Below, piece by piece: positions 33,900 through 48,360 of a stretch of 64,000 bases of DNA. Positions within the stretch are counted from its first letter, which is position 1, and every line of letters begins with the position of its first letter. This stretch comes from Microcoleus sp. FACHB-672 (GTDB taxonomy: Bacteria > Cyanobacteriota > Cyanobacteriia > Cyanobacteriales > Oscillatoriaceae): contig NZ_JACJOU010000015.1 of assembly GCF_014695725.1 (NCBI RefSeq), positions 248,001 through 312,000 of the forward strand. The letters are read 5' to 3'. The notes beneath the pieces were generated by a model, which was not told the DNA's origin, did not search any database, and worked only from the letters and a program-made list of their open reading frames with translations. Made by a program: the position numbers and the translations under genes.

Positions 33900-36164
33900 T
33901 CAGATAATCGGTTGAGAATTTGTGCGACGAATAGCCACGACGGCTGGTTTAGGTGGATCGTTAGCACCTTTACCGGGCCAGTTGGAACCCACCGGCACTT
34001 GACGCTTTTGTATGAATGGGTTGCCATCAGTCGTTAGCAGAGCAAATTCTCGTGTTTCCGCTGCCATGTTTTGGCGAATGCCCTTTGCTTCCCCTGGATG
34101 CTGCACAGCTAAAAATAATGTCTGTTGATCGTTTGTGAAGAATGGCCCTGTGGTTTCGCAATCCATTGGCCCACAGCCGAACAAAAATGCTTTACCGGCA
34201 TCTTCCCCAGAAGTTGGCATATACCAAATTGAGTTGTTCCCAAATAAACCAAGCATTTTAGAAGTTTCTACAGGTTTACCGGCTTCTACGCGATTGGGAA
34301 CGGCTTGATTATGTGCGCCGGTGCCAATATCTGTCACTACCCAAATATTGCCTTTCGGATCAATTAACAGATTATCTGGGTTGGAAAATCCCATGCCGCC
34401 GCCAGCCGGTTCACCGCCGGTTGCTGCCATTTTCCACCGAAAATTTGAGGCGGCAGGATCATTGTTTTCTTCCTCTAAGCGCATGATCCAACCATAAGGA
34501 TAGGGCGTTTCGCCTTGCGGGCCTTTAAAAATGCGCTGATCTGGCCCGCCTTCTTTCCCGGAAAGGCCGGCAGTAAAGGTAATGTACAGTGACCCATCGG
34601 GGGCAATTTCAGTGTCTTCCGGACGGGCTGTGCAGGTGGCACCGGCAGCGTTGCCGGCATAATGAGCATCAATTAAAATTGCCCCTTGTTTCTCTTCCGG
34701 GTTGCCGGTGTACAAATCTCCCAAAGTTTTAAATTGCTGTTTAAATTGGGTAACTTGTTCGTTATTTTCAACTTGAATATAGGGATTTTTGCCGGGATTA
34801 GCGGATTTTGGGGGTTGGGATTCGTTCTCGTTTCTCTGTTTACCGACTGTCACGTTTCCCGGTTCCCGATAAGGTAGCAAGAGGTTATTTCCGATGATAT
34901 TGTTAGGGAGATCGGGATTAACTGAAGTATCTGCTTTTAAGGGAATCCAACTGCCGGTGCCATCTGAGTTGAATTTAGCGGCGTAAAGTTGGCCGGTTCC
35001 TAGTAATTTGGAGTTAGCTTTGTCGGTGGGGTTGCTAACAGCATCCTTGCTAACGAATTTATAGACGTGTCCACCTTGGCGATCGCAGCCGGAATAAAAG
35101 GCAAGGGGTTTACCGGCTTCTACGCGAACCCCAACTGCTTCATGCCGGTAGCGTCCTAACCAGGTATGTTTCGTGCCGTAGTCTTTCGGGTTGGCTGGGT
35201 CGATTTCTACGATCCAACCATATTTATTGCCGGTAAGTCCAAATACATTGCCTTGGGCGTCGAGACTTGCGGTGTTGAAAGGCAGTTCTGCCGGCGGATA
35301 AGAGGTGCCATCAGCATAGACAGGTTCGGGGACTTGGGATTGAAAGTTTTCTTCCCCACTTAAAACCGTTCCCCACGGCGTTGTCCCACCGGCACAGTTG
35401 GCAAAAGTGCCGATAATTTGAGCACCTAATTTATCAATATAGCCTTGTCCTTGCTGTTTCTTAAAAACCGCTACTGCTGGGCCGGTTGCTTTTAGATAAC
35501 GCCCATCTTCTAATCCTGAGATGCCGGTGATTCGCCGATCTGCTGCGGAATTGGTTCTTTCCCAACTGCCGTCTGGTTGCCGGCGTAGTGAAATCACCCC
35601 TAGTCCCTGATCGATCAAGGCTTCTTTGCAAATTTCCCGAATTTTAACTTTGATCGGGTCACTATCCGGCAGTGCGAAGGCATTTAGCCCATCTTTACCG
35701 GCTTTTTTAACAGCGGCGTCTACTTCCTCAAACGGTAGGGTTTTGCCAATGATTTGTTGAAAGCTTTGTAGCCAAGGGCGTTCGCTAATATATTCAAAGT
35801 TAATTGTTAGATAACCTTCATCGGGGCCGGTTTGCACAAAGGATAAATAGTCATTGTTGTAACCGAAACGGGAATCCCCAACTTTATCGCCCCAAGCGGC
35901 AATCACTTGATAGGTAAAACCATCTGGCAAAACAAGGTCATCCGCCACTTCATAGGTGCTGTAAGCTTGCGGTTGCTGGGCCGGCTCAACTCCATCTGTG
36001 AGCAGCGGCATCGGCCCTTTAACTGGCAGAAATAGCCGTTTCAGAGCGTTTTGAGAGGAAGTCTGTGTGGTTGAATTTGGCCCACACGATTGCAGGGAAT
36101 TCAAGGCAACTGCGCCGGCAGCACTTCCCAGAAACAATAAAAAATCCCGACGATTAACACTCAT
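33900..36164 (-). CDS. phoX: PhoX-family alkaline phosphatase with Tat signal
   Basis: PhoX proteins are calcium/iron-dependent secreted phosphatases. The N-terminus is a twin-arginine signal, SVNRRDFLLFLGSAAGAVAL, followed by SLQSC, a possible lipobox. The 754 residues contain family motifs such as YSGCDRQGGHVYKFVS, CTARPEDTEIAPDGSLYITF, SNPDNLLIDPKGNIWVVTD and FLAVQHPGEA. It is the last gene of the minus-strand phosphate cluster (sphR, sphS, phoU, phoX), which supports phosphate-limitation regulation. I see no convincing Pho box directly upstream. Confidence 0.9.
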   Translation of the reverse strand: MSVNRRDFLLFLGSAAGAVALNSLQSCGPNSTTQTSSQNALKRLFLPVKGPMPLLTDGVEPAQQPQAYSTYEVADDLVLPDGFTYQVIAAWGDKVGDSRFGYNNDYLSFVQTGPDEGYLTINFEYISERPWLQSFQQIIGKTLPFEEVDAAVKKAGKDGLNAFALPDSDPIKVKIREICKEALIDQGLGVISLRRQPDGSWERTNSAADRRITGISGLEDGRYLKATGPAVAVFKKQQGQGYIDKLGAQIIGTFANCAGGTTPWGTVLSGEENFQSQVPEPVYADGTSYPPAELPFNTASLDAQGNVFGLTGNKYGWIVEIDPANPKDYGTKHTWLGRYRHEAVGVRVEAGKPLAFYSGCDRQGGHVYKFVSKDAVSNPTDKANSKLLGTGQLYAAKFNSDGTGSWIPLKADTSVNPDLPNNIIGNNLLLPYREPGNVTVGKQRNENESQPPKSANPGKNPYIQVENNEQVTQFKQQFKTLGDLYTGNPEEKQGAILIDAHYAGNAAGATCTARPEDTEIAPDGSLYITFTAGLSGKEGGPDQRIFKGPQGETPYPYGWIMRLEEENNDPAASNFRWKMAATGGEPAGGGMGFSNPDNLLIDPKGNIWVVTDIGTGAHNQAVPNRVEAGKPVETSKMLGLFGNNSIWYMPTSGEDAGKAFLFGCGPMDCETTGPFFTNDQQTLFLAVQHPGEAKGIRQNMAAETREFALLTTDGNPFIQKRQVPVGSNWPGKGANDPPKPAVVAIRRTNSQPII

Positions 36165-36412: not shown

Positions 36413-37078
36413 TTAACGATGTCCTGTAACAATATAAGCCACTCGCTGACCAATATTGGTCGCATGATCGCCCATGCGTTCCAAATGACGGATGACCAGC
36501 GTCAGTAACACAATCGGTTCAACCACCCCTTTAATATCTCGCTGGTGGGCTAAAGTGTCATAAAGGCTTTCGTACGCATCATCGACGGTAGTATCTTGCT
36601 CTTTTAGCTGCCTTCCCGCCTCAGCATCTAAATCGGCTAAAGCTACTAAGCTCATTGCCAGCATGGCTTGTGCGTGTTGGGACATTTCTGCCACTTGCGG
36701 CATACAGGGTTGGGTGGGATAAGGAAACAGTTTAATCGCGATTTCTGCCAAATCTTTTGCATAATCACCGATGCGTTCTAAATCTCGCACAAGCTGCATA
36801 AACGCGCCTAACAAGCGGGAATCCTGTGCTGCCGGTGCTTGAAGGGTCATCATCAGAACGCAATCTGATTCTATCTGCCGGTAAAATTGATCGATTTGCT
36901 TATCTAGTAAAGGAATTTCCTTTGCTGCACACAAATCTCGACTAAACAGAGCTTCATGACTGAGGCGAAATGTATTTTCTACCAAAGCACCCATCCGCAA
37001 AACATCCCGTTCTAAACGCTTAATCTGGCGCTCAAAATGGGTTCTCTCACAATTCTGATTAGAAGATGCTGAATTCAC
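36413..37078 (-). CDS. phoU: Phosphate-signalling protein PhoU
   Basis: PhoU couples the Pst transporter to the phosphate sensor kinase and represses the Pho response when phosphate is plentiful. Two homologous PhoU helical bundles are visible: residues ~12-105 (FERQIKRLERDVLRMGALVE; LMQLVRDLERIGDYAKDLAE) and ~115-215 (VLLTLVIRHLERMGDHATNI). The ExxRxxD metal-binding motif appears in both bundles. The 221 residues match the family length. It lies between sphS and phoX, on the same strand. Confidence 0.93.
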   Translation of the reverse strand: MNSASSNQNCERTHFERQIKRLERDVLRMGALVENTFRLSHEALFSRDLCAAKEIPLLDKQIDQFYRQIESDCVLMMTLQAPAAQDSRLLGAFMQLVRDLERIGDYAKDLAEIAIKLFPYPTQPCMPQVAEMSQHAQAMLAMSLVALADLDAEAGRQLKEQDTTVDDAYESLYDTLAHQRDIKGVVEPIVLLTLVIRHLERMGDHATNIGQRVAYIVTGHR

Positions 37079-37446: not shown

Positions 37447-38826
37447 TTAACTCCTTCCAGCCGTTACTTCTTCATAGGGTAAATGGATTTGTAGCCAAGC
37501 GCCGCCGGTTTCCGGATGGTTGTGGGCAGTAATGGAGCCGCCATGAGCGAGGACGATTTGCCGAACAATCGCTAAACCGAGTCCACTGCCGGCACTCACT
37601 GAGGTTGCTGCTGTTTGGGTATTGCTGGATGAGGGCTGTTGAAACTTTCTATCTGATGCTGTGCCGGCAGGATTTGCGGTGTCTTTTTGGTAGTCAGAAA
37701 CACTGCGTGAACGTGATGGCTCCCCGCGATACAATCGCTCAAAAACATGGGGTAAATCTGCTTCTGGAAAACCTTGGCCGGAATCAAAGATATCGATTTG
37801 CAGAGAGGTTGGAGCGCTCTCGGAAGGCAGCAGGGCAATCTTCGCTTGAATGGTACTTTGGGGCGGACTGTAACGAATACTGTTGTCGAATAAGTTGAGA
37901 AAGACTTGGGTGAGACGGGACTCGTCTGCGCTGAGGGCCAGCCGGTCAGGGCCAGAATAGACAAAATCTAGTTGTTTCTGCTTAGCAAGCGGCTCTAGAG
38001 TCAGCCATGCTGATTGAATTAAAACCGGCAGTTCTAAGGGTCTAGACGTGAGGCTTTTACTGGGATCTGCTTCAATCTGAATTAAATCTAGCCAGTCTTG
38101 TACCAGCTTAATCAGCCGGTTCGTTTCCAAAAGTAACCGCTCCGCCCAAGTCTGCATTGGCGGTTCTAAGCGTTGCTGTAAGGCTTCTGCAACTAAACGA
38201 ATAGAAGTCAGGGGGGTTCTGAGTTCGTGGGTTAAGTCTGTCACCCAGCGGTTGCGACTGTGAGCGAGCGTTACCAAGTCCTGCCGGTTTTCTAAAAACA
38301 CTCCCACTTGGCCATCTGGCAGCGGCCAACTGTACCCCCGCAGGGTTGTAGATCGCTGCCGGCTCATGCCTTCAGCATCGGAAATGGCGGGATGAAACAC
38401 CCACTCGCACTGACACGGCTGCTGCTGGTGGCGAGTTTGCTCGATGAGTTCGTCTAGTTCAAAGGAACGCACAACTTTAAGGAGCAAACGCGACCGTTCT
38501 GACTCCCTATTTTGAATATTGAATAGCTGTCGCGTTTGCTCGTTACACCAAAGCAGTTGATTTTCTTCATCAACTTGTAGATAGCCTATCGGTGCAACTT
38601 GGAGAAGTTGCCGCCATAATTGCAGTTGCACTTCTAGCTGTTGCCGCTCCATGTTTGCTTGGACGATTGATCGCCGCAAGCGAACCAGGCTTGGCAAGGA
38701 ATCTCCGATGTCATCATCTGGCAATATTGCAAGCAGTCGTTGAAGTTGCCGGTTAAGCAACAGCCGTTGAGACAGGAACACTCCAAGCCCTAGAGCTAAA
38801 CCCAAGAAAAATGCGACTAGAGCCAT
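37447..38826 (-). CDS. sphS: Phosphate sensor histidine kinase SphS
   Basis: SphS (PhoR homologue) phosphorylates SphR under phosphate starvation. The N-terminal hydrophobic segment ALVAFFLGLALGLGVFLSQ is the membrane-association region. A PAS domain follows (~75-130, LLQVAPIGYLQVDEENQLLW), then HisKA (DLTHELRTPLTSIRLVAEAL) and HATPase (VFLNLFDNSIRYSPP; DSGQGFPEADLPHVFER; GSGLGLAIVRQIV). There is a Ser/Thr-rich insertion before the last box. It is 76 bp downstream of sphR on the same strand, so both are likely one transcript. Confidence 0.9.
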   Translation of the reverse strand: MALVAFFLGLALGLGVFLSQRLLLNRQLQRLLAILPDDDIGDSLPSLVRLRRSIVQANMERQQLEVQLQLWRQLLQVAPIGYLQVDEENQLLWCNEQTRQLFNIQNRESERSRLLLKVVRSFELDELIEQTRHQQQPCQCEWVFHPAISDAEGMSRQRSTTLRGYSWPLPDGQVGVFLENRQDLVTLAHSRNRWVTDLTHELRTPLTSIRLVAEALQQRLEPPMQTWAERLLLETNRLIKLVQDWLDLIQIEADPSKSLTSRPLELPVLIQSAWLTLEPLAKQKQLDFVYSGPDRLALSADESRLTQVFLNLFDNSIRYSPPQSTIQAKIALLPSESAPTSLQIDIFDSGQGFPEADLPHVFERLYRGEPSRSRSVSDYQKDTANPAGTASDRKFQQPSSSNTQTAATSVSAGSGLGLAIVRQIVLAHGGSITAHNHPETGGAWLQIHLPYEEVTAGRS

Positions 38827-38902: not shown

Positions 38903-39655
38903 CTAACCTAACCGATAGCCAAAGCCTCGGACTGTAATGATGTACTCTGGCTGGCTGGGATCTCGTTCGACTTTCTCGCGTAACCAGCGAATGTGAACGT
39001 CTACGGTTTTGCTATCGCCAATAAAATCTTGCCCCCAAACTTGGTCGAGCAACTGATCGCGGGACCAAACCCGGCGGGGATAACTCATGAATAATTCCAG
39101 CAGCCGGTATTCTTTGGGCGAGAGGGTGAGTTCTTCGCCCCGCACGATGACACGGCACTCTTGGGGATAAAGGCTGATGTCCCCAAATTGCAACACCGAC
39201 GGCTGGGGTAAGTAGTTTAAGCGCTGCCGGCGCAACAACGCCCGACACCGGGCAATGAGTTCGCGCATACTAAAGGGTTTGGTTAGGTAATCATCCGCTC
39301 CCACTTCTAGCCCTAAAACGCGATCCGTTTCGCTGCCCTTGGCGCTCAATATTAAAATCGGTACGGCATAACCTTGATGACGTAACAACCGGCACAGATC
39401 GAGACCATTGACCTGGGGCAACATTAAATCTAGAACAATTAAGTCAAAGGGCAATTCTCCTGCTCTTGGCTCAAGCTCGTAAAGCAAAGACATGGCCGTC
39501 CGCCCATCTATCGCGCTGGTGACTGCGTAGCCTTCTCCTTCTAACGCTAAAACCACCATATCGCGGATCAAGTCTTCATCTTCAACAACCAAAACTCGGC
39601 CTGTTTGCCCTATATCTGGCATCGATGGGCTTTTCATGGAGTCTATAGAGAACAT
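38903..39655 (-). CDS. sphR: Phosphate response regulator SphR
   Basis: SphR (PhoB homologue) activates Pho genes such as pstS and phoX. The receiver (about 19-135) shows RVLVVEDEDLIRDMVVLALE, the phospho-Asp in DLIVLDLMLPQVNGLDL, and LTKPFSMRELIARCRALLRR. The OmpR-type winged helix (~155-249) shows LTLSPKEYRLLELFMSYP and TVDVHIRWLREKVERDP. An internal Met at residue 7 or 12 could be the real start. It leads the sphR-sphS pair. A candidate Pho box lies ~170 bp upstream, which would give autoregulation. Confidence 0.92.
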   Translation of the reverse strand: MFSIDSMKSPSMPDIGQTGRVLVVEDEDLIRDMVVLALEGEGYAVTSAIDGRTAMSLLYELEPRAGELPFDLIVLDLMLPQVNGLDLCRLLRHQGYAVPILILSAKGSETDRVLGLEVGADDYLTKPFSMRELIARCRALLRRQRLNYLPQPSVLQFGDISLYPQECRVIVRGEELTLSPKEYRLLELFMSYPRRVWSRDQLLDQVWGQDFIGDSKTVDVHIRWLREKVERDPSQPEYIITVRGFGYRLG

Positions 39656-40013: not shown

Positions 40014-40682
40014 CTAAGTGTTCTTACCAGAGTTAATTTCAAGGGCACCATTGGCTATCGCAAGCGTCTGCTGCGCTGCTTTCTCCTTACGTTCGCTGTA
40101 GCGATCTGTTAGGTAATTAACTTGATCACGCAGCAACATTGTAAATTTGTAAAGCTCCTCCATGACATCAATGAGACGATCTCGATAAGGTGAATTCTTC
40201 ATCGTGCCATCTTCATTAAACTCTTGGTAAGCTTTAGCAACAGAGGACTGGTTAGGTATGGTGAACATCCGCATCCAGCGCCCCAGAATTCGCAGCGTAT
40301 TAACGGCATTGAAAGACTGAGAACCTCCGCTTACTTGCATTACAGCTAAGGTTCTTCCTTGAGTGGGTCTGACTGCCCCGATACTTAAGGGAATCCAATC
40401 AATTTGGTTTTTCATAATGCCGCTAATATTGCCATGCAGCTCAGGACTTGACCACACCTGAGCTTCAGACCACAAGCTCAATTCTCGTAACTCCTGCACC
40501 TTGGGATGTGTATCTTCTACACTGCCGTATATGGGTAATTCGCGAGGATTGAAAAAACGGACTTCCGCACCAAATTCTTCGATAATTCGAGCGGCTTCTT
40601 CTGCTAAGAGCCGGCTATAAGAACGCTCTCGTAAAGAGCCATACAAAAATAAAATTCTGGGTGGATGATCAAAATTTGTCAT
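40014..40682 (-). CDS. arsH: ArsH, NADPH-dependent FMN reductase of arsenic resistance
   Basis: ArsH is a flavoprotein that oxidises organoarsenicals or reduces quinones and metals. The flavodoxin-like fold starts [20 protein letters not shown], with the FMN phosphate loop GSLRERSYS. Further ArsH signatures are [39 protein letters not shown] and [20 protein letters not shown]. At 222 residues it is typical. It is the last gene of the aquaporin-arsC-arsH operon, 15 bp after arsC. Confidence 0.93.
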
Positions 40683-40697
40683 AGAAATCAGCCTTCT

Positions 40698-41093
40698 TTA
40701 ACTGAGAGTTTCAACGAGTTTTGCCACTCTTTCCTTAATTTCATCCCGCACTCGGTGAAACGTTTCCACCGGCTGTCCATCTGGATCGTCTAGTTGCCAA
40801 TCTTCAAATACATCTCGCAGCACCCAAGCTTCTGGTAAATTAACACCACAGCCGCACAGGGAAATCACGGCGTCATAGTTTTCTGCGCTAAAATCGCTTA
40901 ATTGTTTAGAAGTCTGATCTGTAATGTCAATACCGATTTCAGACATAACTTCCACAGCGGTGGGATGCACTCGGCTGCCTTCGAATCCGGAACTGGTGAC
41001 AGAAATTTTGCCGGCACCTAAAGTTTTCGCAAATCCCTCTGCCATCTGAGACCGGCAGGAATTTCTTTTGCAAACAAACATCACTCGTTTCAT
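40698..41093 (-). CDS. arsC: Arsenate reductase ArsC (Synechocystis-type, glutaredoxin-linked)
   Basis: This enzyme reduces arsenate to arsenite. It has the low-molecular-weight phosphatase-fold motif KRVMFVCKRNSCRSQMAEGF (CX5R). The second redox pair is in ISLCGCGVNLPE. The three Cys match the arrangement in Synechocystis ArsC, which uses glutathione and glutaredoxin. The start at ATG 41093 gives 131 residues, the family length; the frame is open 42 codons further upstream with unrelated sequence. It sits between the aquaporin and arsH, so arsenite made here can leave through the channel. Confidence 0.93.
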   Translation of the reverse strand: MKRVMFVCKRNSCRSQMAEGFAKTLGAGKISVTSSGFEGSRVHPTAVEVMSEIGIDITDQTSKQLSDFSAENYDAVISLCGCGVNLPEAWVLRDVFEDWQLDDPDGQPVETFHRVRDEIKERVAKLVETLS

Positions 41094-41166
41094 GGCTGTT
41101 GTTAAAGATGAGTTGTTAGATAATAGGGAGATAGCGGCGTAACTAATTGACAGAACTTTCTGGGTT

Positions 41167-41880
41167 TTATTTAATATCTTGAAATCCCTGAGAAAGCTGC
41201 CGATAGACCAGCACAGCAAGTTGCGCTCCTAAAATAGGTGCAACCCAATAGACCCAATGATGCTGCCAAATACCGGCAACTAAGGCGGGGCCAAACGACC
41301 TGGCGGGATTCATGCTTGCTCCTGTAATAGGACCCATGAGAGTTGCTTCCATTCCAACTGTTAACCCAATCGCTAAACCAGCAAAGCCAATATGAGCACG
41401 GCGATCAAGGCCAGACCCTAAAATGACCAGCATCAAGATGAAGGTGAGAATAGTTTCGAGCACAAAAGATTGTGACCAGTTGCCGTTGAGTGGCAAAGTC
41501 GCCCCCAGTTTTGCAACCGATCCCAAAGCAATTAGCAGTACCGTTGAGCCGGCAAACGCACCGATGCACTGTGCCAAAATATAGGGCAGTATCTTGTATT
41601 TGGGAAAATAACCGCTTACCCAAAAACCGAGAGTTACAGCAGGGTTAAAATGAGCGCCGCTGAGATGTCCCATTGTGTAGATTAAAGCAGCCACGACTGC
41701 CCCAAAGACGAAGCTAACCCCAAGATGGGTAACAGCACCGCCGCTAATTTGGTTCACCATGACTGCGCCGGTGCCGGCAAACACCAGAATGAATGTACCG
41801 ATACCCTCTGCCAGCGCCTCTCGCCAGCAGTAAAAAATCGATTTCTGTAAAGCCATCTTAAAATCTGACTTTTTGCCCAT
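41167..41880 (-). CDS. MIP-family aquaglyceroporin of the ars operon (AqpS-like)
   Basis: There are six transmembrane helices and two NPA boxes, HFNPAVTLGF and MNPARSFGP. The first helix is EALAEGIGTFILVFAGTGAV. MIP channels conduct As(OH)3. In Sinorhizobium meliloti an aquaglyceroporin (AqpS) replaces the ArsB/Acr3 pump in an arsR-aqpS-arsC-arsH operon. The same genes are seen here, with no arsB or acr3 in the window. ATG at 41880 is the outermost start; a second at 41856 (MALQKSIF) is equally possible. Two ArsR-like palindromes precede the gene by 140-180 bp. Confidence 0.88.
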   Translation of the reverse strand: MGKKSDFKMALQKSIFYCWREALAEGIGTFILVFAGTGAVMVNQISGGAVTHLGVSFVFGAVVAALIYTMGHLSGAHFNPAVTLGFWVSGYFPKYKILPYILAQCIGAFAGSTVLLIALGSVAKLGATLPLNGNWSQSFVLETILTFILMLVILGSGLDRRAHIGFAGLAIGLTVGMEATLMGPITGASMNPARSFGPALVAGIWQHHWVYWVAPILGAQLAVLVYRQLSQGFQDIK

Positions 41881-41912
41881 CTGATGTATCCGCAGCTTTT
41901 ATCTAAAATGAT

Positions 41913-41987
41913 TAGAATTTTTCTTGTTTGCGTAAGAACTTGCCCAGCGTCAAGTTAAGCCTTGCCTTCAAATACTGTCTCGGCCTC
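41913..41987 (-). pseudogene. Remnant 3' end of a PstS-like gene
   Basis: Read leftward, the DNA encodes TVFEGKA, then after a ~5-bp deletion LTLGKFLRKQEKF and TAA. This matches the C-terminus of the PstS-like gene at 46045 (TVFDGKAQFNLTLGELLRKQ, then EKF and a stop). Nucleotide similarity is strong (for example AACTTGACGCTGGGCAAGTT versus AACTTGACACTGGGCGAGTT). Nothing else of the gene is left. It lies directly upstream of the aquaporin, downstream of the ArsR-like palindromes. Confidence 0.8.
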
Positions 41988-42019
41988 AATATCCTTTCTC
42001 CGGTGTTCAAAATTATCAT

Positions 42020-42035
42020 ATCAATAAAAATTGAT
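42020..42035. promoter_or_regulatory. Candidate ArsR operator 1 (aquaporin operon)
   Basis: ATCAATAAAAATTGAT is a perfect 6-bp inverted repeat around AAAA. It fits the TCAA-N6-TTGA form that also occurs at 42049, 42152 and 47115. ArsR-family regulators bind such short AT-rich palindromes; an ArsR is encoded at 47.2 kb. Confidence 0.5.
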
Positions 42036-42048
42036 TTACAAAAGTATT

Positions 42049-42062
42049 TCAATAAAAATTGA
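42049..42062. promoter_or_regulatory. Candidate ArsR operator 2 (aquaporin operon)
   Basis: TCAATAAAAATTGA is identical to the core of operator 1 and starts 28 bp after it, close to three helical turns. The tandem arrangement suggests cooperative binding. Confidence 0.5.
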
Positions 42063-42151
42063 TAAATATAGATAATCCCTACTGAAAAGTAGCTTTGGGG
42101 CTTTTCGTTAAACTAATATTTAAGCTATGCGCCTTTTATCAATTATATATT

Positions 42152-42165
42152 TCAAAATAAATTGA
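42152..42165. promoter_or_regulatory. Candidate ArsR operator 3
   Basis: TCAAAATAAATTGA fits the same TCAA-N6-TTGA pattern in the AT-rich gap between pstA and the aquaporin. A degraded half-copy (TCAAATAAATGA) lies near 42197. Confidence 0.35.
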
Positions 42166-42329
42166 TATAATATGGTAGCTTTTTTGTATAAAAATTTCAA
42201 ATAAATGACGGTATTCTATATAAAATTAAATAATTTATATATAAAGCTAGAATAATTAAAACTACTAAATCAGTTCAGATAAAATTCAATATTTAAGCAC
42301 TAAGTATGGAATCCTCCTTTTGGCTTTTT

Positions 42330-42365
42330 GAATAGGGTTTATAGCAATCACGACAAACCCTATTC
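42330..42365. repeat. 11-bp inverted repeat downstream of pstA
   Basis: GAATAGGGTTT (42330-42340) is perfectly inverted as AAACCCTATTC (42355-42365). It follows the pstA stop by about 30 bp in the transcript direction. On that strand the stem is followed by AAAAAG rather than a T-run, so it may stabilise the 3' end rather than terminate. Confidence 0.5.
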
Positions 42366-42392
42366 AATGAAGCCTTAACAGATTGATAAGAG

Positions 42393-43307
42393 TTAATAGG
42401 CTTTACGAGCCGTAGAGAGACGGGAAATAATACTGGTGAGCAAGACAAGCAGCACGAGGATAAGCGCTGCTGCCCAAGCAAGCTCTTTCTGGTTTTCGTA
42501 GGGACGAGTGGCGAAGTTGTAAACCAAAACGGCGAGAGATGCTGCCGGCTGATTCAACGCTTCTACACCGTTCTGCGAAATGGGCAAGTAATACTGACTA
42601 AAAAGCGCGGTAAACAGAAGGGGTGCGGTTTCTCCAGCCGCACGAGCGATTGCTAAGGTGGTGCCGGTGACAATGGCGGGTAAAGCTGCCGGTAAAACAA
42701 CCCGCGCCACCGTTTGAAAATTTGTGGCTCCTAAACCCAGTGCGCCCTGTCTGGTTTCCTGGGGCACGAGCTTGAGCGATTCTTCTGTAGCCCGGACAAT
42801 GATGGGCAACATCAGCACGGATAAAGCAAAGCCGCCGGCGAAAGCTGAGTAATTTTTTGTGGTCAGTACGAAGACGCCGTAAGCAAATACGCCGACAATG
42901 ATCGAAGGGACACCGCTGAGAACGTTGGTGAAAAAGCGAATCCAGCTAGCAAACTGAGTGCCGGCAGCAAATTCAGACACATAAACTGCTGCTAAGACGC
43001 CAACGGGAATGCTGATCAGCGCCCCAAACGCTACCATCAGCAGTGTTCCTTGGATGGCATTGCCAAAGCCCCCACCCGCCTGTAATGCCACCGGCGGCAG
43101 TTCAGTGAAGACACCAAAGTTGATTCGGCTAGCACCTTTGATAATCACGTAGGAAAGGACGGCAACAAGCGGCAGGAGGGCGATGGCAGCCGCAGAGAAT
43201 GTCAAGCCGGTCATCAGCGTCCCAAACAGCGTCCGGGGAGAATTCGGTGAGCGCGTTAGAGTCTTGCTTGGGTAGCCAGAAGGAGTGCTATTTGGGTTTG
43301 CAGGCAT
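42393..43307 (-). CDS. pstA: Phosphate ABC transporter permease PstA
   Basis: PstA is one of the two inner-membrane permeases of the high-affinity phosphate importer. About six membrane helices are visible, with the ABC-permease coupling loop RATEESLKLVPQETRQGALG and LGATNFQTVARVVLPAALP. The N-terminal ~35 residues are Ser/Pro-rich cytosolic. It follows pstC by 68 bp. The ATPase gene pstB, which normally follows pstA, is absent; the next 512 bp is non-coding with ArsR-like sites. Confidence 0.93.
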   Translation of the reverse strand: MPANPNSTPSGYPSKTLTRSPNSPRTLFGTLMTGLTFSAAAIALLPLVAVLSYVIIKGASRINFGVFTELPPVALQAGGGFGNAIQGTLLMVAFGALISIPVGVLAAVYVSEFAAGTQFASWIRFFTNVLSGVPSIIVGVFAYGVFVLTTKNYSAFAGGFALSVLMLPIIVRATEESLKLVPQETRQGALGLGATNFQTVARVVLPAALPAIVTGTTLAIARAAGETAPLLFTALFSQYYLPISQNGVEALNQPAASLAVLVYNFATRPYENQKELAWAAALILVLLVLLTSIISRLSTARKAY

Positions 43308-43375
43308 GATAGTTAAGAATGAAAAATGAAGCAGGAAGAATCAAGAATGAGAAATCAATTCTGCATTCTGCATTT

Positions 43376-44338
43376 TTAGATTCGCTGAACCCGGCGCACT
43401 AGAATTTCAGCCAGGATATTAACTAATAGCGTCAGCGCAAACAACATTAAGGATGCATACATCAGTGCGGAGACTTGCAAACCGCTTGCTTCTGCAAATT
43501 GATTCGCCAGCAGCGAGGCAACAGTATTCGCCGGCTTTAAAATGGAAGCATTGATATTGTTGGCATTTCCGATGAGCATCGTTACCGCCATTGTCTCGCC
43601 CAAAGCGCGGCCTAATGCCAGCATGACTGCCCCCACAATTCCAGAGAAGGCTGCCGGGACGAGGATCTTAATAATCGTTTCCCAACGAGTTGCGCCCAAA
43701 CCCATTGACGCTTGTCGCAGATCCGGTGGCAGGGAAATTAACGAATCGCGAGAGATGACGGCAATTGTCGGTAAAACCATAATTGCTAAAACCACCCCTG
43801 CCGGCAGCATTCCTAAACCTGTAGCGTTCGGAGGCTCGTTAAAAATGGGTATCCAGCGAAAATGTTCGTAGAGCCAAAGACCGACCTGTTTAAAAAGAGG
43901 AACGACCACAAACAGCCCCCAAAGCCCGTACACAACGCTGGGAATGGCTGCTAAGAGTTCTACTAAGAAAGCTAAGGCTACCTGAACCTTGGGCGGCAAG
44001 AAGTCCTCGCTCAGAAATAGCGCGACTCCCAATCCCACGGGAATCGCAAAAAATAGGGCGATGACTGCACTGATGAGAGTGCCGTACAGCTGAGGCAGTG
44101 CCCCAAACGCGTCACGCACAGGGTCCCAGCTTGTAGAAAAAAGAAACCCCAAACCAAACTTTTCAATAGCCGGCAGCGCTTGCATCCCAACCAAGAAGGT
44201 GATCCAAAGCAAAATGCCCACAATTGAGAGGGCGCAAAATAGAGTGAGCGGCACAAAGATTTTATTCATCCACCGCTCAAGGGTTTGTCCAAGATTGAGC
44301 GAACGGTTTCTCCCGCTGCTTTGCGAATGACTGCTCAT
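43376..44338 (-). CDS. pstC: Phosphate ABC transporter permease PstC
   Basis: This is the partner permease of PstA. The first helix is IFVPLTLFCALSIVGILLWI. The coupling region reads SRDSLISLPPDLRQASMGLG followed by ATRWETIIKILVPAAFSGI, and the characteristic GRALGETMAVTMLIGN lies near the C-terminus. At 320 residues it is normal. It sits between pstS (291-bp gap with a terminator-like hairpin) and pstA. Confidence 0.93.
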   Translation of the reverse strand: MSSHSQSSGRNRSLNLGQTLERWMNKIFVPLTLFCALSIVGILLWITFLVGMQALPAIEKFGLGFLFSTSWDPVRDAFGALPQLYGTLISAVIALFFAIPVGLGVALFLSEDFLPPKVQVALAFLVELLAAIPSVVYGLWGLFVVVPLFKQVGLWLYEHFRWIPIFNEPPNATGLGMLPAGVVLAIMVLPTIAVISRDSLISLPPDLRQASMGLGATRWETIIKILVPAAFSGIVGAVMLALGRALGETMAVTMLIGNANNINASILKPANTVASLLANQFAEASGLQVSALMYASLMLFALTLLVNILAEILVRRVQRI

Positions 44339-44538
44339 AATTAACCTTTTTACAGAAAAAGCTGAAAATGGCCGTTCAGCTAAAAAACAAAATTGTTTGG
44401 GTATTTACAGCTTGCTTCGCAATCATCAATGATTTGTCTTAATCCAATGACTGATGATAAAAAACTGAAATATTTATTTTAGACAGTTAAATGCTTAGCC
44501 GCTTACACATTTTACTGGTAAGCAGCCGAAAAGAAAAA

Positions 44539-44583
44539 GTCAAAAGGTAAAAGACCCTGAGCTTTTACCTTTGGCTTTTTGAC
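44539..44583 (-). terminator. Terminator-like hairpin between pstS and pstC
   Basis: GTCAAAAGGTAAAAG (44539-44553) pairs with CTTTTACCTTTGGCTTTTTGAC (from 44562) with a small internal bulge and an 8-nt loop. Such a hairpin after pstS is expected where the binding protein is made in excess over the permeases, through partial termination or 3' stabilisation. Confidence 0.55.
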
Positions 44584-44629
44584 AGTTAGCCTAGACTGTA
44601 GGCAGAAAATTGTCTGAGCCGGCCTAAAC

Positions 44630-45751
44630 CTAGGAAGGGCTAATGGCATCAACTGCCGGTTGAACTTTGTCAACAACTTCTTTGGGCAGGGGGATATAAC
44701 CGAGGTCTGAGCTGAACTTCTGTCCGTCAGTCAGTCCCCATTTAATCACATCTTCCATTGCTTTGGCTTTGGCTGGATCGCTGAACTCCTTGGGCACCAA
44801 CAACCAAGTATAGGTGACGATCGGATAGGATTCATTTCCTTCTGGGTCAGCAATGAATGCGCGGAAATTTTCGGGAAGTTGAACGGCAGCAAGGGTTTTG
44901 GAGGATGCTTCGGGAGTCGGTTCAACGAACTGACCGGCTTTGTTTTCCAAAGAAGCCATATTCAAGCCGTTGTTTTTGGCATAGCCGTATTCAACATAAC
45001 CGATTGCACCTTCAGTCTGCTTCAGCAGTTCTGTGACGCCTTCGTTACCCTTTGCGCCGCTTCCAACCGGCCACTGCACGGTTTTCCCTTCACCTGGGCC
45101 GGCCTTCCAATCTGCGCTAATAGCACTCAGGTGCTTAGTAAATACGCCGGTGGTGCCGCTACCGTCTGAGCGGTAAATCACGCTAATCGCTTTGTCTGGC
45201 AGTTTTGCACCCGGATTGGCTGCCGCGATCAAGGGGTCGTTCCAATTCGTGATTTTGCCAAGAAGAATATCGCTATAAACTTGGCGCGGGAGTTTGAGAT
45301 TCTCAAGACCCGGAACATTGTAAGCGAGCACGATACTGCCGGCTGTCATGGGCACCATGAGAACGCCTTTTTGGGCTTTCGTGATTTCATCGTCCTTCAT
45401 GGCGGTGTCGCTGGCTCCAAAGTCTACCGTTCCTTCGGTAAACTGGTTCACCCCTGCTCCACTACCGACAGATTGGTAGCTAACTTGGACGTTGGGATTT
45501 GCTTTGTTGTACTCATTAAACCAAACTTCATACAGCGGTGCTGGAAACGAAGCGCCCGCCCCATTAAGTCTGACATTCTGACCCCCAGCGGCGGTTGTTG
45601 CGGCTGGAGATGCGTTAGATCCAGAGGTTGTGCTGCCGGTGTTACCCGCATTATTATTAGAATTTGAGCCACTACAAGCAGCTAAGCTAAATGAAAGTGC
45701 GATCGCCGAGGCGACAAACGCACTGCGAGTTGAGCGAAGTTGAGACAACAT
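44630..45751 (-). CDS. pstS: Periplasmic phosphate-binding protein PstS
   Basis: PstS delivers phosphate to PstCA. The signal is a lipoprotein type (STRSAFVASAIALSFSLAAC, lipobox LAAC), then a Ser/Asn/Thr/Ala-rich linker. The binding domain opens LNGAGASFPAPLYEVWFNEY. Ligand loops QSVGSGAGVNQFTEGTVDFG and YRSDGSGTTGVFTKHLS are intact. I start at ATG 45751 (MLSQLRSTRS, 373 aa). A four-unit Pho box is centred about 85 bp upstream, so it should respond to SphR. Confidence 0.93.
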   Translation of the reverse strand: MLSQLRSTRSAFVASAIALSFSLAACSGSNSNNNAGNTGSTTSGSNASPAATTAAGGQNVRLNGAGASFPAPLYEVWFNEYNKANPNVQVSYQSVGSGAGVNQFTEGTVDFGASDTAMKDDEITKAQKGVLMVPMTAGSIVLAYNVPGLENLKLPRQVYSDILLGKITNWNDPLIAAANPGAKLPDKAISVIYRSDGSGTTGVFTKHLSAISADWKAGPGEGKTVQWPVGSGAKGNEGVTELLKQTEGAIGYVEYGYAKNNGLNMASLENKAGQFVEPTPEASSKTLAAVQLPENFRAFIADPEGNESYPIVTYTWLLVPKEFSDPAKAKAMEDVIKWGLTDGQKFSSDLGYIPLPKEVVDKVQPAVDAISPS

Positions 45752-45815
45752 ATTATTCCCTGAACACACTTACAGGTGAATTCTCCCAAGCGTACGGGTT
45801 AACTGTAAACATCAA

Positions 45816-45856
45816 AGTTAATAATTAAGTTAAAATTCTATTAACTTCAGGTTAAA
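45816..45856 (-). promoter_or_regulatory. Pho box (SphR site) upstream of pstS
   Basis: On the pstS coding strand the units are TTTAACCT (45849-45856), GTTAATAG (45838-45845), TTTAACTT (45827-45834) and TATTAACT (45816-45823), each separated by exactly 3 bp. This is the 8+3 bp tandem layout of cyanobacterial Pho boxes. The first unit is one base from CTTAACCT. It lies about 65-105 bp before the pstS start. Confidence 0.72.
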
Positions 45857-46044
45857 TCGAAGTAAAGTGCTGAGCTGTCTTGCCTTCCCTAACTAGCTTT
45901 CCAGAGTTACTTGAGATTATTTCCTGGCTGGGATTGACATTTGCAACTGATTAAGTATCGCTTCTGCAATGATCCCTAGCGTGCTAAAATTCCTAACCTT
46001 GATATTAACGCACTCTCTAAGTGTCCGATGTGCCGGTTAGAGAA

Positions 46045-47070
46045 CTAAAACTTTTCCTGTTTCCGTAATAACTCGCCCAGTGTCAAGTTGAACTGAGCTT
46101 TTCCATCAAACACCGTTCCAATTTTACCGCGATGAAAATGAACCTCGCCCAGCCGGTATCCTTCATCCGGTAAAGGCACATAGCCCACAGATTTAACGAT
46201 GGCCGATGCGTTTTTCAGGTAAAAATCGACAAAGGCTTTGACCTCTGGTTTGGTTTGGGCCGATTTGGCATTGATATAGATGAGCAGAGGACGCGAAAGC
46301 GGTTGATATTCAGCTTTCTCCACAGTCTTCAATGAAGGCAACACTGGCCCTTTTCCGCTATCAATCCCTAAAGGCTTCAATTGATCTTGATTGGTTTCGT
46401 AATAAGCATAGCCAAAATAACCCAGCGCATTGGGATCTTCACTGACTCCCCGCACGAGAGCGTTATCATCTTCGCTGGCTGTATAATCACTCCGGCTGGC
46501 TTTGGCTTGACCGACTACGGCTTCCGTGAAGTAGTCAAAGGTGCCAGAATCTTTGCCGGGGCCAAAAAGATTTAGCGGTTTGTCCGGCCAAGATGGGCGA
46601 ATTTGCTGCCAACTGGTAAGTTTGCCTTCAGATGCCGGTGTCCACATCTTTTGCAATTCTGCCAGGGTGATGTCCTAGGCCCAAGTATTTTGGGGATTAA
46701 CCACCACAGTCACCGCATCAAAAGCAATGGGTAATTCTATATAAGGTATGCCAGCGTTTCTGCAAGCCTCCATCTCTTTGGGTTGGATGGGGCGAGAGGC
46801 GTTGCTGATATCGGTTTCCCCGGCACAAAATTTTCTAAACCCACCGCCGGTGCCGGTGAAGTCAACTTTGATCTCAACGTCTTCTGTTTGCGCGTTTTGA
46901 AACTCTTTGGCAACCGCCTGCGTAATCGGAAACACGGTGCTAGATCCATCAATCAAAATTGATACAGGCTGTGACTTAGCGCGACTGCATGAGTTGAGCG
47001 CCGCACCGGCACCGCTCGTTAGCACGAAAAGACACAGCCCAAAAGCCACCCGTTTCGTTATTGTGTTCAT
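46045..47070 (-). pseudogene. Second PstS-like phosphate-binding lipoprotein gene, interrupted by one amber codon
   Basis: The frame from ATG 47070 to TAG near 46045 encodes a PstS/SphX-like protein of 341 codons. It has a lipoprotein signal ([20 protein letters not shown], then SC), [40 protein letters not shown] and LFGPGKDSGTFDYFTEAVVG. Codon 132 (46675-46677) is TAG, between NPQNTWA and DITLAELQKMW; the same frame is otherwise open and well conserved on both sides, and GAG or another sense codon is expected here. It is therefore a recent pseudogene, a readthrough gene or a sequencing error. It lies 116 bp downstream of arsR with an ArsR-like palindrome 45 bp before its start. Confidence 0.88.
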
Positions 47071-47114
47071 CGGCTTAACCCGAATGACAAGACTGAGGGA
47101 ACCTCTCTATCATT

Positions 47115-47128
47115 TCAAATAAATTTGA
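47115..47128. promoter_or_regulatory. Candidate ArsR operator before the PstS-like gene
   Basis: TCAAATAAATTTGA is a 6-2-6 perfect inverted repeat, of the same TCAA-N6-TTGA form as the sites before the aquaporin. It is 45 bp upstream of the PstS-like start and 59 bp downstream of the arsR stop. Confidence 0.5.
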
Positions 47129-47186
47129 TTTGTCAAGCAACAGTTAGCTGGTATGACGCAGGAAGAATATTAAGAAAGTTAATGAA

Positions 47187-47519
47187 TTAAGAGGCGTCCT
47201 GGCATCGACGCACCGGCAGAATCGAACTAAAGCGCCGGTATTCCGCCAAATATTGCTCAAGTACGACAAATTGAGGCAAATTAAGACTGTAGTAGATCCA
47301 GCGTCCTTCCTGACGGGCGCGAACCAGCGAGGCTTCTTTGAGCGTTTTTAGGTGAAAAGACAGCTTAGACTGACTCACTTCCAACTGTTCGCACAGATCG
47401 CACACGCATAACTCGCGATCACGCAGCAGATCCAAAACCTGAAGCCGGATCGGGTCAGATAGGGCGTGAAAACCGGCAATCATTTCAGCCGGTGTTGTGG
47501 TCGAAGGTTGTGCCATCAA
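47187..47519 (-). CDS. arsR: Arsenic-responsive repressor ArsR
   Basis: This winged-helix ArsR/SmtB regulator releases DNA when arsenite binds. The metal motif ELCVCDLCEQL is the classic ArsR arsenite site (Cys-Val-Cys-Asp-Leu-Cys). The recognition helix is SQSKLSFHLKTLKEASLVRA, followed by the wing RQEGRWIYYSLN. The length is 110 residues (or 109 from the second Met). It is separated from aqpS-arsC-arsH by the PstS-like gene and pstSCA, but candidate operators lie at both places. It is divergent from the creatininase-family gene with 94 bp between. Confidence 0.94.
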   Translation of the reverse strand: MMAQPSTTTPAEMIAGFHALSDPIRLQVLDLLRDRELCVCDLCEQLEVSQSKLSFHLKTLKEASLVRARQEGRWIYYSLNLPQFVVLEQYLAEYRRFSSILPVRRCQDAS

Positions 47520-47613: not shown

Positions 47614-48360
47614 ATGCTGCTGCACTTAAGTACCTGGCCAGAAGTTGAAACTTACCTCGAAACATCCACCGGCATCATCCTTCCCATCGGTTCGACGGAA
47701 CAACACGGCCCAACCGGCTTGATCGGCACCGATGCCATTTGTGCTGAAGCGATTTCGCGGGGGGTTGGAGAAGCCTGCAACGCCCTAGTTGGCCCTACCA
47801 TTAATGTGGGCATGGCACTACACCACACCGGCTTTCCTGGCACCATTAGCCTGCGTCCTAGCACGATGATGTTGCTGGTTCGCGATTATGTGGCCGGTTT
47901 AGCCAAAGCAGGATTTACCAAATTTTTCTTTATTAATGGCCACGGCGGCAACATAGCCACACTCAAGGCCGCTTTCTCCGAAACTTATGCAGTGCTCGCA
48001 GAGTTAAACATTAACAATGCAGATCGGGTGCAGTGTCAAGTTGGCAACTGGTTCATGTGCGGATCTGTGTATAAACTTGCCAAAGAGTTATATGGCGACC
48101 AAGAAGGTTCCCACGCTACACCCAGCGAGGTTGCGCTGACTCAGTATGTCTATCCAGAGGCGATTAAGCAAGCTCCTCTCACAGCCGAGGTAGCCAGTGG
48201 TCATGCAATTTACGGCGCTGCTGAATTCCGCCGGCGTTACCCTGACGGTCGCATGGGTTCAAATCCTGCTTTGGCAACGCCTGAACATGGCAAGCAATTT
48301 TACGATCTTGCTGTCAAAGAATTGAGTAATTACTATTTGGAGTTCATTAGCGCAGAATAA
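47614..48360 (+). CDS. Creatininase-family amidohydrolase
   Basis: Metal-binding motifs of the family are visible: ILPIGSTEQHGPTGLIGTDA (Glu, His and Asp ligands), INGHGGNIATLKAAF and GSHATPSEVALTQYVYPEA. The 248 residues match the usual length. Family members hydrolyse cyclic amides, for example creatinine or the formamide of riboflavin/F420-type precursors. The substrate here is not indicated by context. It is divergent from arsR but otherwise unconnected with arsenic functions. Confidence 0.87.
   Translation: MLLHLSTWPEVETYLETSTGIILPIGSTEQHGPTGLIGTDAICAEAISRGVGEACNALVGPTINVGMALHHTGFPGTISLRPSTMMLLVRDYVAGLAKAGFTKFFFINGHGGNIATLKAAFSETYAVLAELNINNADRVQCQVGNWFMCGSVYKLAKELYGDQEGSHATPSEVALTQYVYPEAIKQAPLTAEVASGHAIYGAAEFRRRYPDGRMGSNPALATPEHGKQFYDLAVKELSNYYLEFISAE

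Follow-up and report, generated by a model that had tools for sequence, protein, structure and literature searches.

The window analysed here is a 64,000-nucleotide stretch of Microcoleus sp. FACHB-672 (contig NZ_JACJOU010000015.1), whose minus strand carries arsenic-resistance (ars) genes side by side with phosphate-uptake (pst) and phosphate-regulation genes. Open reading frames (ORFs) and profile matches confirmed the order arsR, PstS-like gene, pstS-pstC-pstA, aquaporin, arsC, arsH, sphR-sphS-phoU-phoX, which an earlier note on this DNA had claimed, and placed the PstS-like gene between arsR and pstS as described there. The PstS-like gene is a broken sphX gene, and the locus appears to be an arsenic operon that took in pst genes. 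The genes are listed below.

47187..47519, minus strand: arsR, ArsR/SmtB-family metalloregulator with an ELCVCDLC motif (PF01022, 5e-18; NF033788, 99.5 bits, cut-off 55)
46045..47070, minus strand: sphX (PstS-like), interrupted in frame by TAG at 46675-46677; its two ORFs match neighbouring stretches of TIGR02136
44630..45751, minus strand: pstS, ATG start read at 45751 (TIGR00975, 398.5 bits, cut-off 205)
43376..44338, minus strand: pstC (TIGR02138, 310 bits, above cut-off)
42393..43307, minus strand: pstA, with no pstB after it (TIGR00974, 286.5 bits, above cut-off)
41167..41880, minus strand: aquaporin of the MIP family (TIGR00861, 190.7 bits, cut-off 171)
40698..41093, minus strand: arsC, glutathione/glutaredoxin-type arsenate reductase (TIGR02689, 239.9 bits, cut-off 157.6)
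40014..40682, minus strand: arsH (TIGR02690, 384.5 bits, above cut-off)
38903..39655, minus strand: sphR-type response regulator (PF00072 and PF00486)
37447..38826, minus strand: sphS-type histidine kinase (PF00512 and PF02518)
36413..37078, minus strand: phoU (TIGR02135, 173.4 bits, above cut-off)
33900..36164, minus strand: phoX alkaline phosphatase (PF05787, 338.9 bits)

The two halves of the window sphX scored 120 and 169 bits against TIGR02136 and 34 and 23 bits against TIGR00975, and three intact sphX orthologues scored 303 to 309 bits against TIGR02136, above its cut-off of 206.6. A tree of 99 rows, among which the experimentally studied SphX proteins were not included, was built by the quick method of IQ-TREE, with branch support from the Shimodaira-Hasegawa-like approximate likelihood ratio test (SH-aLRT) only and no bootstrap. 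One 50-row clade (SH-aLRT 99) contained all 38 ars-linked rows, all 4 pst1-adjacent rows (Microcystis, Chroococcus, Aphanothece, and genome G014), and 8 rows without a clear neighbour; the 39 pst2-linked rows fell outside it. Because the ars-linked and pst1-adjacent rows share one clade that leaves out the pst2-linked rows, the PstS-like gene is, judged by its sequence, SphX of the PstS_2 subfamily TIGR02136. The pst1-adjacent rows sit in a 10-row subclade (support 96) together with 4 ars-linked rows, and the branching order inside the SphX clade appears largely open.

The earlier note overlooked the TAG at 46675-46677 in the PstS-like gene. This codon, at a position variable among relatives, divides sphX into two ORFs of 131 and 203 amino acids, covering TIGR02136 positions 11-132 and 135-295. 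The same gene is damaged in other ways in the two sister genomes of the genus that were compared (G001 and G002; G000 denotes the window genome). In G001, an in-frame deletion has left the first 121 and the last 21 residues, 142 amino acids in all, and the G002 copy has lost its start codon and contains frameshifts as well as one or more in-frame stops. The ratio of nonsynonymous to synonymous substitution rates (dN/dS) of sphX was 0.40, 0.30, and 0.43 in three comparisons (143, 339, and 143 codons), the highest of the 12 genes compared; the 11 other locus genes gave 0.02 to 0.21 in 33 comparisons. In addition, a short 3' piece of what was a second sphX copy is found ahead of the aquaporin gene, at about 41912-41978 on the minus strand; 33 of 38 nucleotides agree with the 3' end of sphX (E = 5e-8). 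G001 and G002 carry such a remnant in the corresponding position, 87% and 75% identical, respectively, to the C terminus of sphX.

Because sphX has an in-frame stop here and different damage in G001 and G002, SphX is judged very unlikely to act in this organism, and the whole protein is probably not made. The window gene thus looks like a SphX member by descent and a pseudogene by state. It could be argued that sphX is still made, the TAG being an assembly error or read through, since the domain is complete in the two halves and dN/dS stays under 1. The heavier and different damage to the same gene in G001 and G002 and the highest dN/dS among the genes compared make this highly improbable. The in-frame stop, together with the lesions in both sister genomes, led us to reject an intact arsenic-induced PstS in this organism; only if the stop codon were an error could the hypothesis of such a protein apply here.

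The palindrome ATCAA-N6-TTGAT is reportedly the operator of the Synechocystis-type ArsR regulon, and the Pho (SphR) consensus consists of tandem YTTAAYYW repeats. Significance was assessed against 300 first-order Markov shuffles of the 250 bp upstream; 24 regions were examined for the two motifs, and P values are uncorrected. The boxes found at the locus are given below.

47114-47129, minus strand: putative ArsR box of sphX, 1 mismatch (P = 0.017)
47109..47136, minus strand: promoter-like TTGACA-16-AATGAT of sphX, with the ArsR box over its spacer (10/12, one of three equal-best matches in the region)
45827..45856, minus strand: Pho (SphR) box before pstS, 21/24 over three repeats (P = 0.003)
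42151..42166, no strand assigned: putative ArsR box 1 before the aquaporin gene, 1 mismatch here and no more than 1 in either G001 or G002; a fourth box, absent from the earlier note
42048..42063, no strand assigned: putative ArsR box 2 before the aquaporin gene, 1 mismatch here, no more than 1 in G002, and two in G001
42020..42035, no strand assigned: putative ArsR box 3 before the aquaporin gene, perfect, also in G001 and G002

The three operator sites proposed previously all proved to be ArsR-like boxes (at 47114-47129, 42048-42063, and 42020-42035), the last one matching ATCAA-N6-TTGAT perfectly. Because the 6.37-Mb genome contains 426 boxes with up to 1 mismatch (18 perfect; 173 for the reversed pattern), a lone ArsR box is weak evidence. 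The boxes upstream of the aquaporin gene exceeded chance, as none of the 300 shuffles reached them, and they are kept in all three genomes of the genus except for the two mismatches in the middle box of G001. The best match before arsR had 3 mismatches, so that no ArsR box of its own was found. Two further matches lie inside the sphX coding region, at 46376-46391 and 46948-46963. The palindrome at 46948-46963 is perfect in G000, G001, and G002 although sphX decays. It coincides with the codons for the SILIDGSS stretch, where 5/31 ars-linked and 1/30 pst-linked relatives also match the pattern with no more than 1 mismatch; codon make-up is therefore its simplest account, and it was rejected as an operator.

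The Pho box before pstS recurs at the same place in G001 (19/24, P = 0.030) and G002 (21/24, 0/300 shuffles). No ArsR box was found upstream of the window pstS, and no Pho box was found before the window sphX and aquaporin genes, both of which have ArsR boxes. A Pho box without an ArsR box also precedes pstS in G004 and G005 as in G000, G002, and, more weakly, G001; G004 shows the same split, with a Pho box before pstS and an ArsR box before acr3. The two regulons, which the earlier note took to be fused, are therefore adjacent and not merged, with only a Pho box at pstS and only ArsR boxes at sphX and the aquaporin gene.

These boxes bear on the suggestion that ArsR drives pstSCA, with the old sphX promoter reading through the dead sphX into pstS and arsenic inducing high-affinity phosphate uptake. 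The sphX ArsR box is identical in G000 and G001, the promoter match at 47136-47109 reaches 10/12, and no terminator-like hairpin was found between the sphX stop and pstS, in a scan where terminator-like sites were no commoner than in shuffles (11 versus 9.9). One such hairpin, however, lies within the 3' half of sphX (46247-46230), and G002 has lost the region after the box, including the start codon. Agrobacterium tumefaciens 5A offers a precedent: PMC7965956 describes repression of pstS1/phoB1 by ArsR1 and a rise of pst1 transcripts with As(III). For Synechocystis, on the other hand, PMC4284471 reports repression of phosphate transport genes by arsenic. Since a Pho box but no ArsR box precedes pstS, we do not favour ArsR control of the pstSCA promoter and consider this explanation rather unlikely.

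The ArsR box before sphX was surveyed in a scan of named genomes, covering the best 80 of 573 loci, which are biased to close relatives and were filed as 31 ars-linked, 30 pst2, and 19 neither. A box with at most 1 mismatch within 250 bp upstream was found in 28 of the 31 ars-linked sphX genes (0.83 expected). The same box was found in none of 29 pst-linked loci (0.29 expected; one of the 30 had too little upstream sequence) and in 2 of 18 loci of the neither class (0.46 expected; one of the 19 was too short). The three ars-linked misses were L098, where sphX lies inside its operon, and L147 and L153, which are in truth pst-type operons. In a separate set examined over 300 bp upstream without shuffles, the box was present in 11/12 arsR-adjacent sphX genes and 8/45 of the remainder. 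A Pho box scoring at least 20 was found in 2/29 ars-linked sphX genes (0.27 expected) compared with 5/7 chosen cyanobacterial pst-linked genes (0.18 expected); the sphX of G003 scored 18/24 (P = 0.037). Among three pst1-adjacent sphX genes tested, one, that of Aphanothece, had a clear Pho box, and the pst1-adjacent copy of G014 carried an ArsR-type box with 1 mismatch. By this comparison, ArsR control of ars-linked sphX is well supported. The proposal of an arsenic-induced PstS-like protein stands insofar as the gene belongs to this ArsR-box group, but the gene itself is broken here. Three other sphX-type genes (L057, L164, and L166) had an ArsR-type box with 0, 1, and 0 mismatches and no recognised arsR adjacent, as expected if arsR is unlinked.

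The C-terminal half of sphX had a match in 48 of the 60 genomes searched, the window genome included. We examined 57 sphX-type hits, leaving out the broken G001 and G002 copies, the window copies, and matches below about 200 bits except for one in G006. arsR lay directly upstream in 12 of the 57, each from another genome, and the next ars gene after sphX in relatives was acr3, gapdh-arsJ, or aquaporin: arsR-sphX-acr3-arsC in G003, G005, and G007; arsR-sphX-aqp-arsC-arsH in G018; and arsR-sphX-gapdh-arsJ in G041 and G028. The ground plan in relatives is thus arsR-sphX-[acr3, gapdh-arsJ or aquaporin]-arsC/arsH, without pstSCA. Because sphR-sphS-phoU-phoX adjoin the ars genes also in G003, G005, and G007, this adjacency probably predates the pst insertion. 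Among the loci examined, arsR-sphX-pstSCA-aqp-arsC-arsH was limited to the three genomes of the window genus. G004, from another genus of the same family, has arsR-pstSCA-acr3-arsC-sphRS-phoU-phoX, and no sphX match was found in its genome. In Laspinema (L084) and Oscillatoria (L086), pstSCAB comes right after arsR-sphX-acr3-arsC. Taken together, these layouts indicate that pst genes came to lie beside ars genes in more than one form. The arsR-sphX order is found in some relatives; the pstSCA insertion is, among the loci examined, confined to the window genus, with a related layout in the genus of G004.

Altogether, we consider it probable, at about 0.75, that the locus derives from an ordinary cyanobacterial arsR-sphX-aquaporin-arsC-arsH operon, that Pho-controlled pstS-pstC-pstA was inserted next to the resident sphR-sphS-phoU-phoX, and that sphX then decayed. 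Arsenite, made by ArsC or entering the cell, would release ArsR from its boxes and thereby turn on aquaporin-arsC-arsH. The aquaporin is a likely arsenite exit, because no Acr3 match was found in the genomes of G000, G001, and G002 by a search that was positive in G004; ArsJ likewise had no match in the three genomes of the genus, in a search without a positive control. Low phosphate would switch on pstSCA through SphR at the Pho box, with the ATPase PstB presumably supplied by an unlinked gene. The S, C, A, and B genes of PstSCAB do not lie together at the window locus, and pstB is off-cluster on another contig of the genome; it was separate from pstSCA or pstS in 7/7 family genomes searched (of 8 family genomes, G007 was left out). 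An orphan pst1-type pstB was located at G000:C13:319069-319872 (L059, L194), and in G004 and G005 a pst1-type pstB was the sole match at E up to 1e-80. The ancestral SphX would have been an ArsR-induced periplasmic phosphate-binding protein, most likely a phosphate donor to PstCA under arsenate stress. After the arrival of pstSCA, sphX may have become dispensable, one copy shrinking to the 3' remnant and the other now being defective in all three genomes compared within the genus.

Several observations weigh against this account of insertion followed by decay. The sphX dN/dS below 1 suggests that the loss is recent or that constraint is partly left, and the order of the two events, insertion before decay, is one that we infer. 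The promoter box of sphX is kept in G000 and G001 despite the broken gene and could still serve pstSCA, and no clear Pho box was found upstream of sphR, phoU, and phoX. Because two ArsB matches elsewhere in the window genome (47 and 39 bits) exceed the Pfam cut-off of 22, the aquaporin may not be the sole arsenite exit. Tandem sphX-sphX-aqp arrangements exist in L085 and L100; in L085, perfect boxes precede both sphX copies and the aquaporin gene. In L100, a box with at most 1 mismatch precedes the first sphX copy only, with none before the second copy or the aquaporin gene. These tandem copies are not the nearest kin of the window copy in the tree, and the two loci would exemplify the expected pre-insertion tandem state without being proof of an ancestor. 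The aquaporin match of L085 (8291-8927) is in two overlapping pieces and may contain a frameshift.

On a wider scale, SphX in many filamentous cyanobacteria may be mainly a phosphate-binding protein of the ArsR regulon, made on arsenic, and the SphX beside pst1 may have been drawn into phosphate uptake later. The window would then record a naturally occurring replacement, SphX having become superfluous once PstSCA had settled behind it. We regard this generalization as tentative, and our estimate of it was lowered slightly because a clear Pho box was present in just the Aphanothece gene among the three pst1-adjacent genes tested and the G014 copy has an ArsR-type box. The ArsR-linked SphX might instead bind arsenate as a periplasmic decoy or sensor and not feed phosphate to PstCA. 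Most examined ars-linked sphX genes have no ATP-binding cassette (ABC) transporter permease gene behind them, and PMC4284471 floats arsenate-insensitive isoforms or roles in arsenic transport. The likely ligand loops (DGSSTV, and SGTs with 19 protein letters not shown), however, have a nearly identical consensus across the ars-, pst1-, and pst2-linked members, which gives no sign of a changed ligand and leaves the decoy or sensor role improbable. All three groups have Arg in the consensus (ASR) where the window PstS has Asp (ASD), an Asp that we take to matter for arsenate discrimination. A structure prediction of an intact orthologue (alignment A2, 7 rows, G003 first) gave a mean predicted local distance difference test (pLDDT) score of 53.8, too poor for use.

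The link between arsR and PstS and the idea of arsenic induction are already published (PMC4284471, PMC3610870). The former, from 2014, describes PstS in cyanobacterial ars clusters, some of which have arsR upstream, and proposes co-regulation as well as isoforms insensitive to arsenate; the latter names nsp33500 as SphX in a Nodularia arsR cluster (nsp33490-33550). These clusters share arsR, the SphX-type gene, and ars genes with the window, where, in contrast, sphX is no longer intact, pstSCA follows it as an insertion, and the position of Acr3/ArsJ is occupied by an aquaporin. In the phosphate-limitation table of PMC9846622, the log2 changes were 0.75, 1.21, and -0.22 for nsp33500 and 1.57, 2.41, and 0.09 for the gapdh gene beside it. 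Because of these values, a modest phosphate response of the Nodularia SphX is possible.

Synechocystis has the pst1 operon sphXpstS1C1A1B1B1', and its ArsR appears to control only five genes (PMC4010505). The window sphX resembles it in lying upstream of pstS and in belonging to the clade of the pst1-adjacent SphX of other cyanobacteria, the Synechocystis protein itself being outside the tree; the window differs in having an ArsR box instead of a Pho box, no pstB, and a broken gene. In Halomonas GFAJ-1 (PMC5930303), with a pst operon within its arsenic island, and in A. tumefaciens 5A (PMC7965956, PMC3834237), pst and ars genes are also neighbours. The two Agrobacterium papers show or review control of pst1 by ArsR, with ArsR1 of strain 5A as the controlling protein, whereas the window pstS has a Pho box, no ArsR box, and its pstB elsewhere. 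The literature searched gave no report of an ArsR-box survey, nor of sphX decay or this pstSCA insertion, although no search was aimed at those two and few subscription journals were covered; no further arsenic-SphX study was found, as judged by titles and abstract openings. The displaced sphX and the pstSCA insertion are a new arrangement, and arsenic-linked phosphate-binding genes were known already in other cyanobacteria. Sinorhizobium meliloti is said to have an arsR-aqpS-arsC-arsH operon with aquaporin, arsC, and arsH under ArsR and no arsenite pump in the operon. The window shares these features with it and differs in the cyanobacterial glutaredoxin-type arsC and the inserted pst genes.

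What was at first only a suggestive order of genes has thereby become a claim open to testing, namely, a conserved operator before ars-linked sphX and a clade in which pstSCA displaced sphX. If SphX helps to tell phosphate from arsenate, genomes that have lost SphX are expected to rely on the PstSCA encoded at this locus. SphX serves as a phosphorus-stress marker in Trichodesmium (PMC12206446); if ArsR control holds in part of the clade, the abundance of SphX may in some cyanobacteria be a readout of arsenic as well.

In other genera of the family, a gene for an ArsP-type permease, absent from the window locus, lies between arsC and sphR (L043 4551-5546; L044 9847-10842), a label that rests on a PF03773 match obtained for the L043 copy. 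A creatininase-family gene (window 47614-48360) is divergent from arsR and occupies the same place in G001, G002, G003, G004, G005, and G007. Farther along, the window encodes a stand-alone protein resembling a nonribosomal peptide synthetase (NRPS), with adenylation, carrier, and thioesterase domains (49165-51918), which is conserved in G001 and G002.

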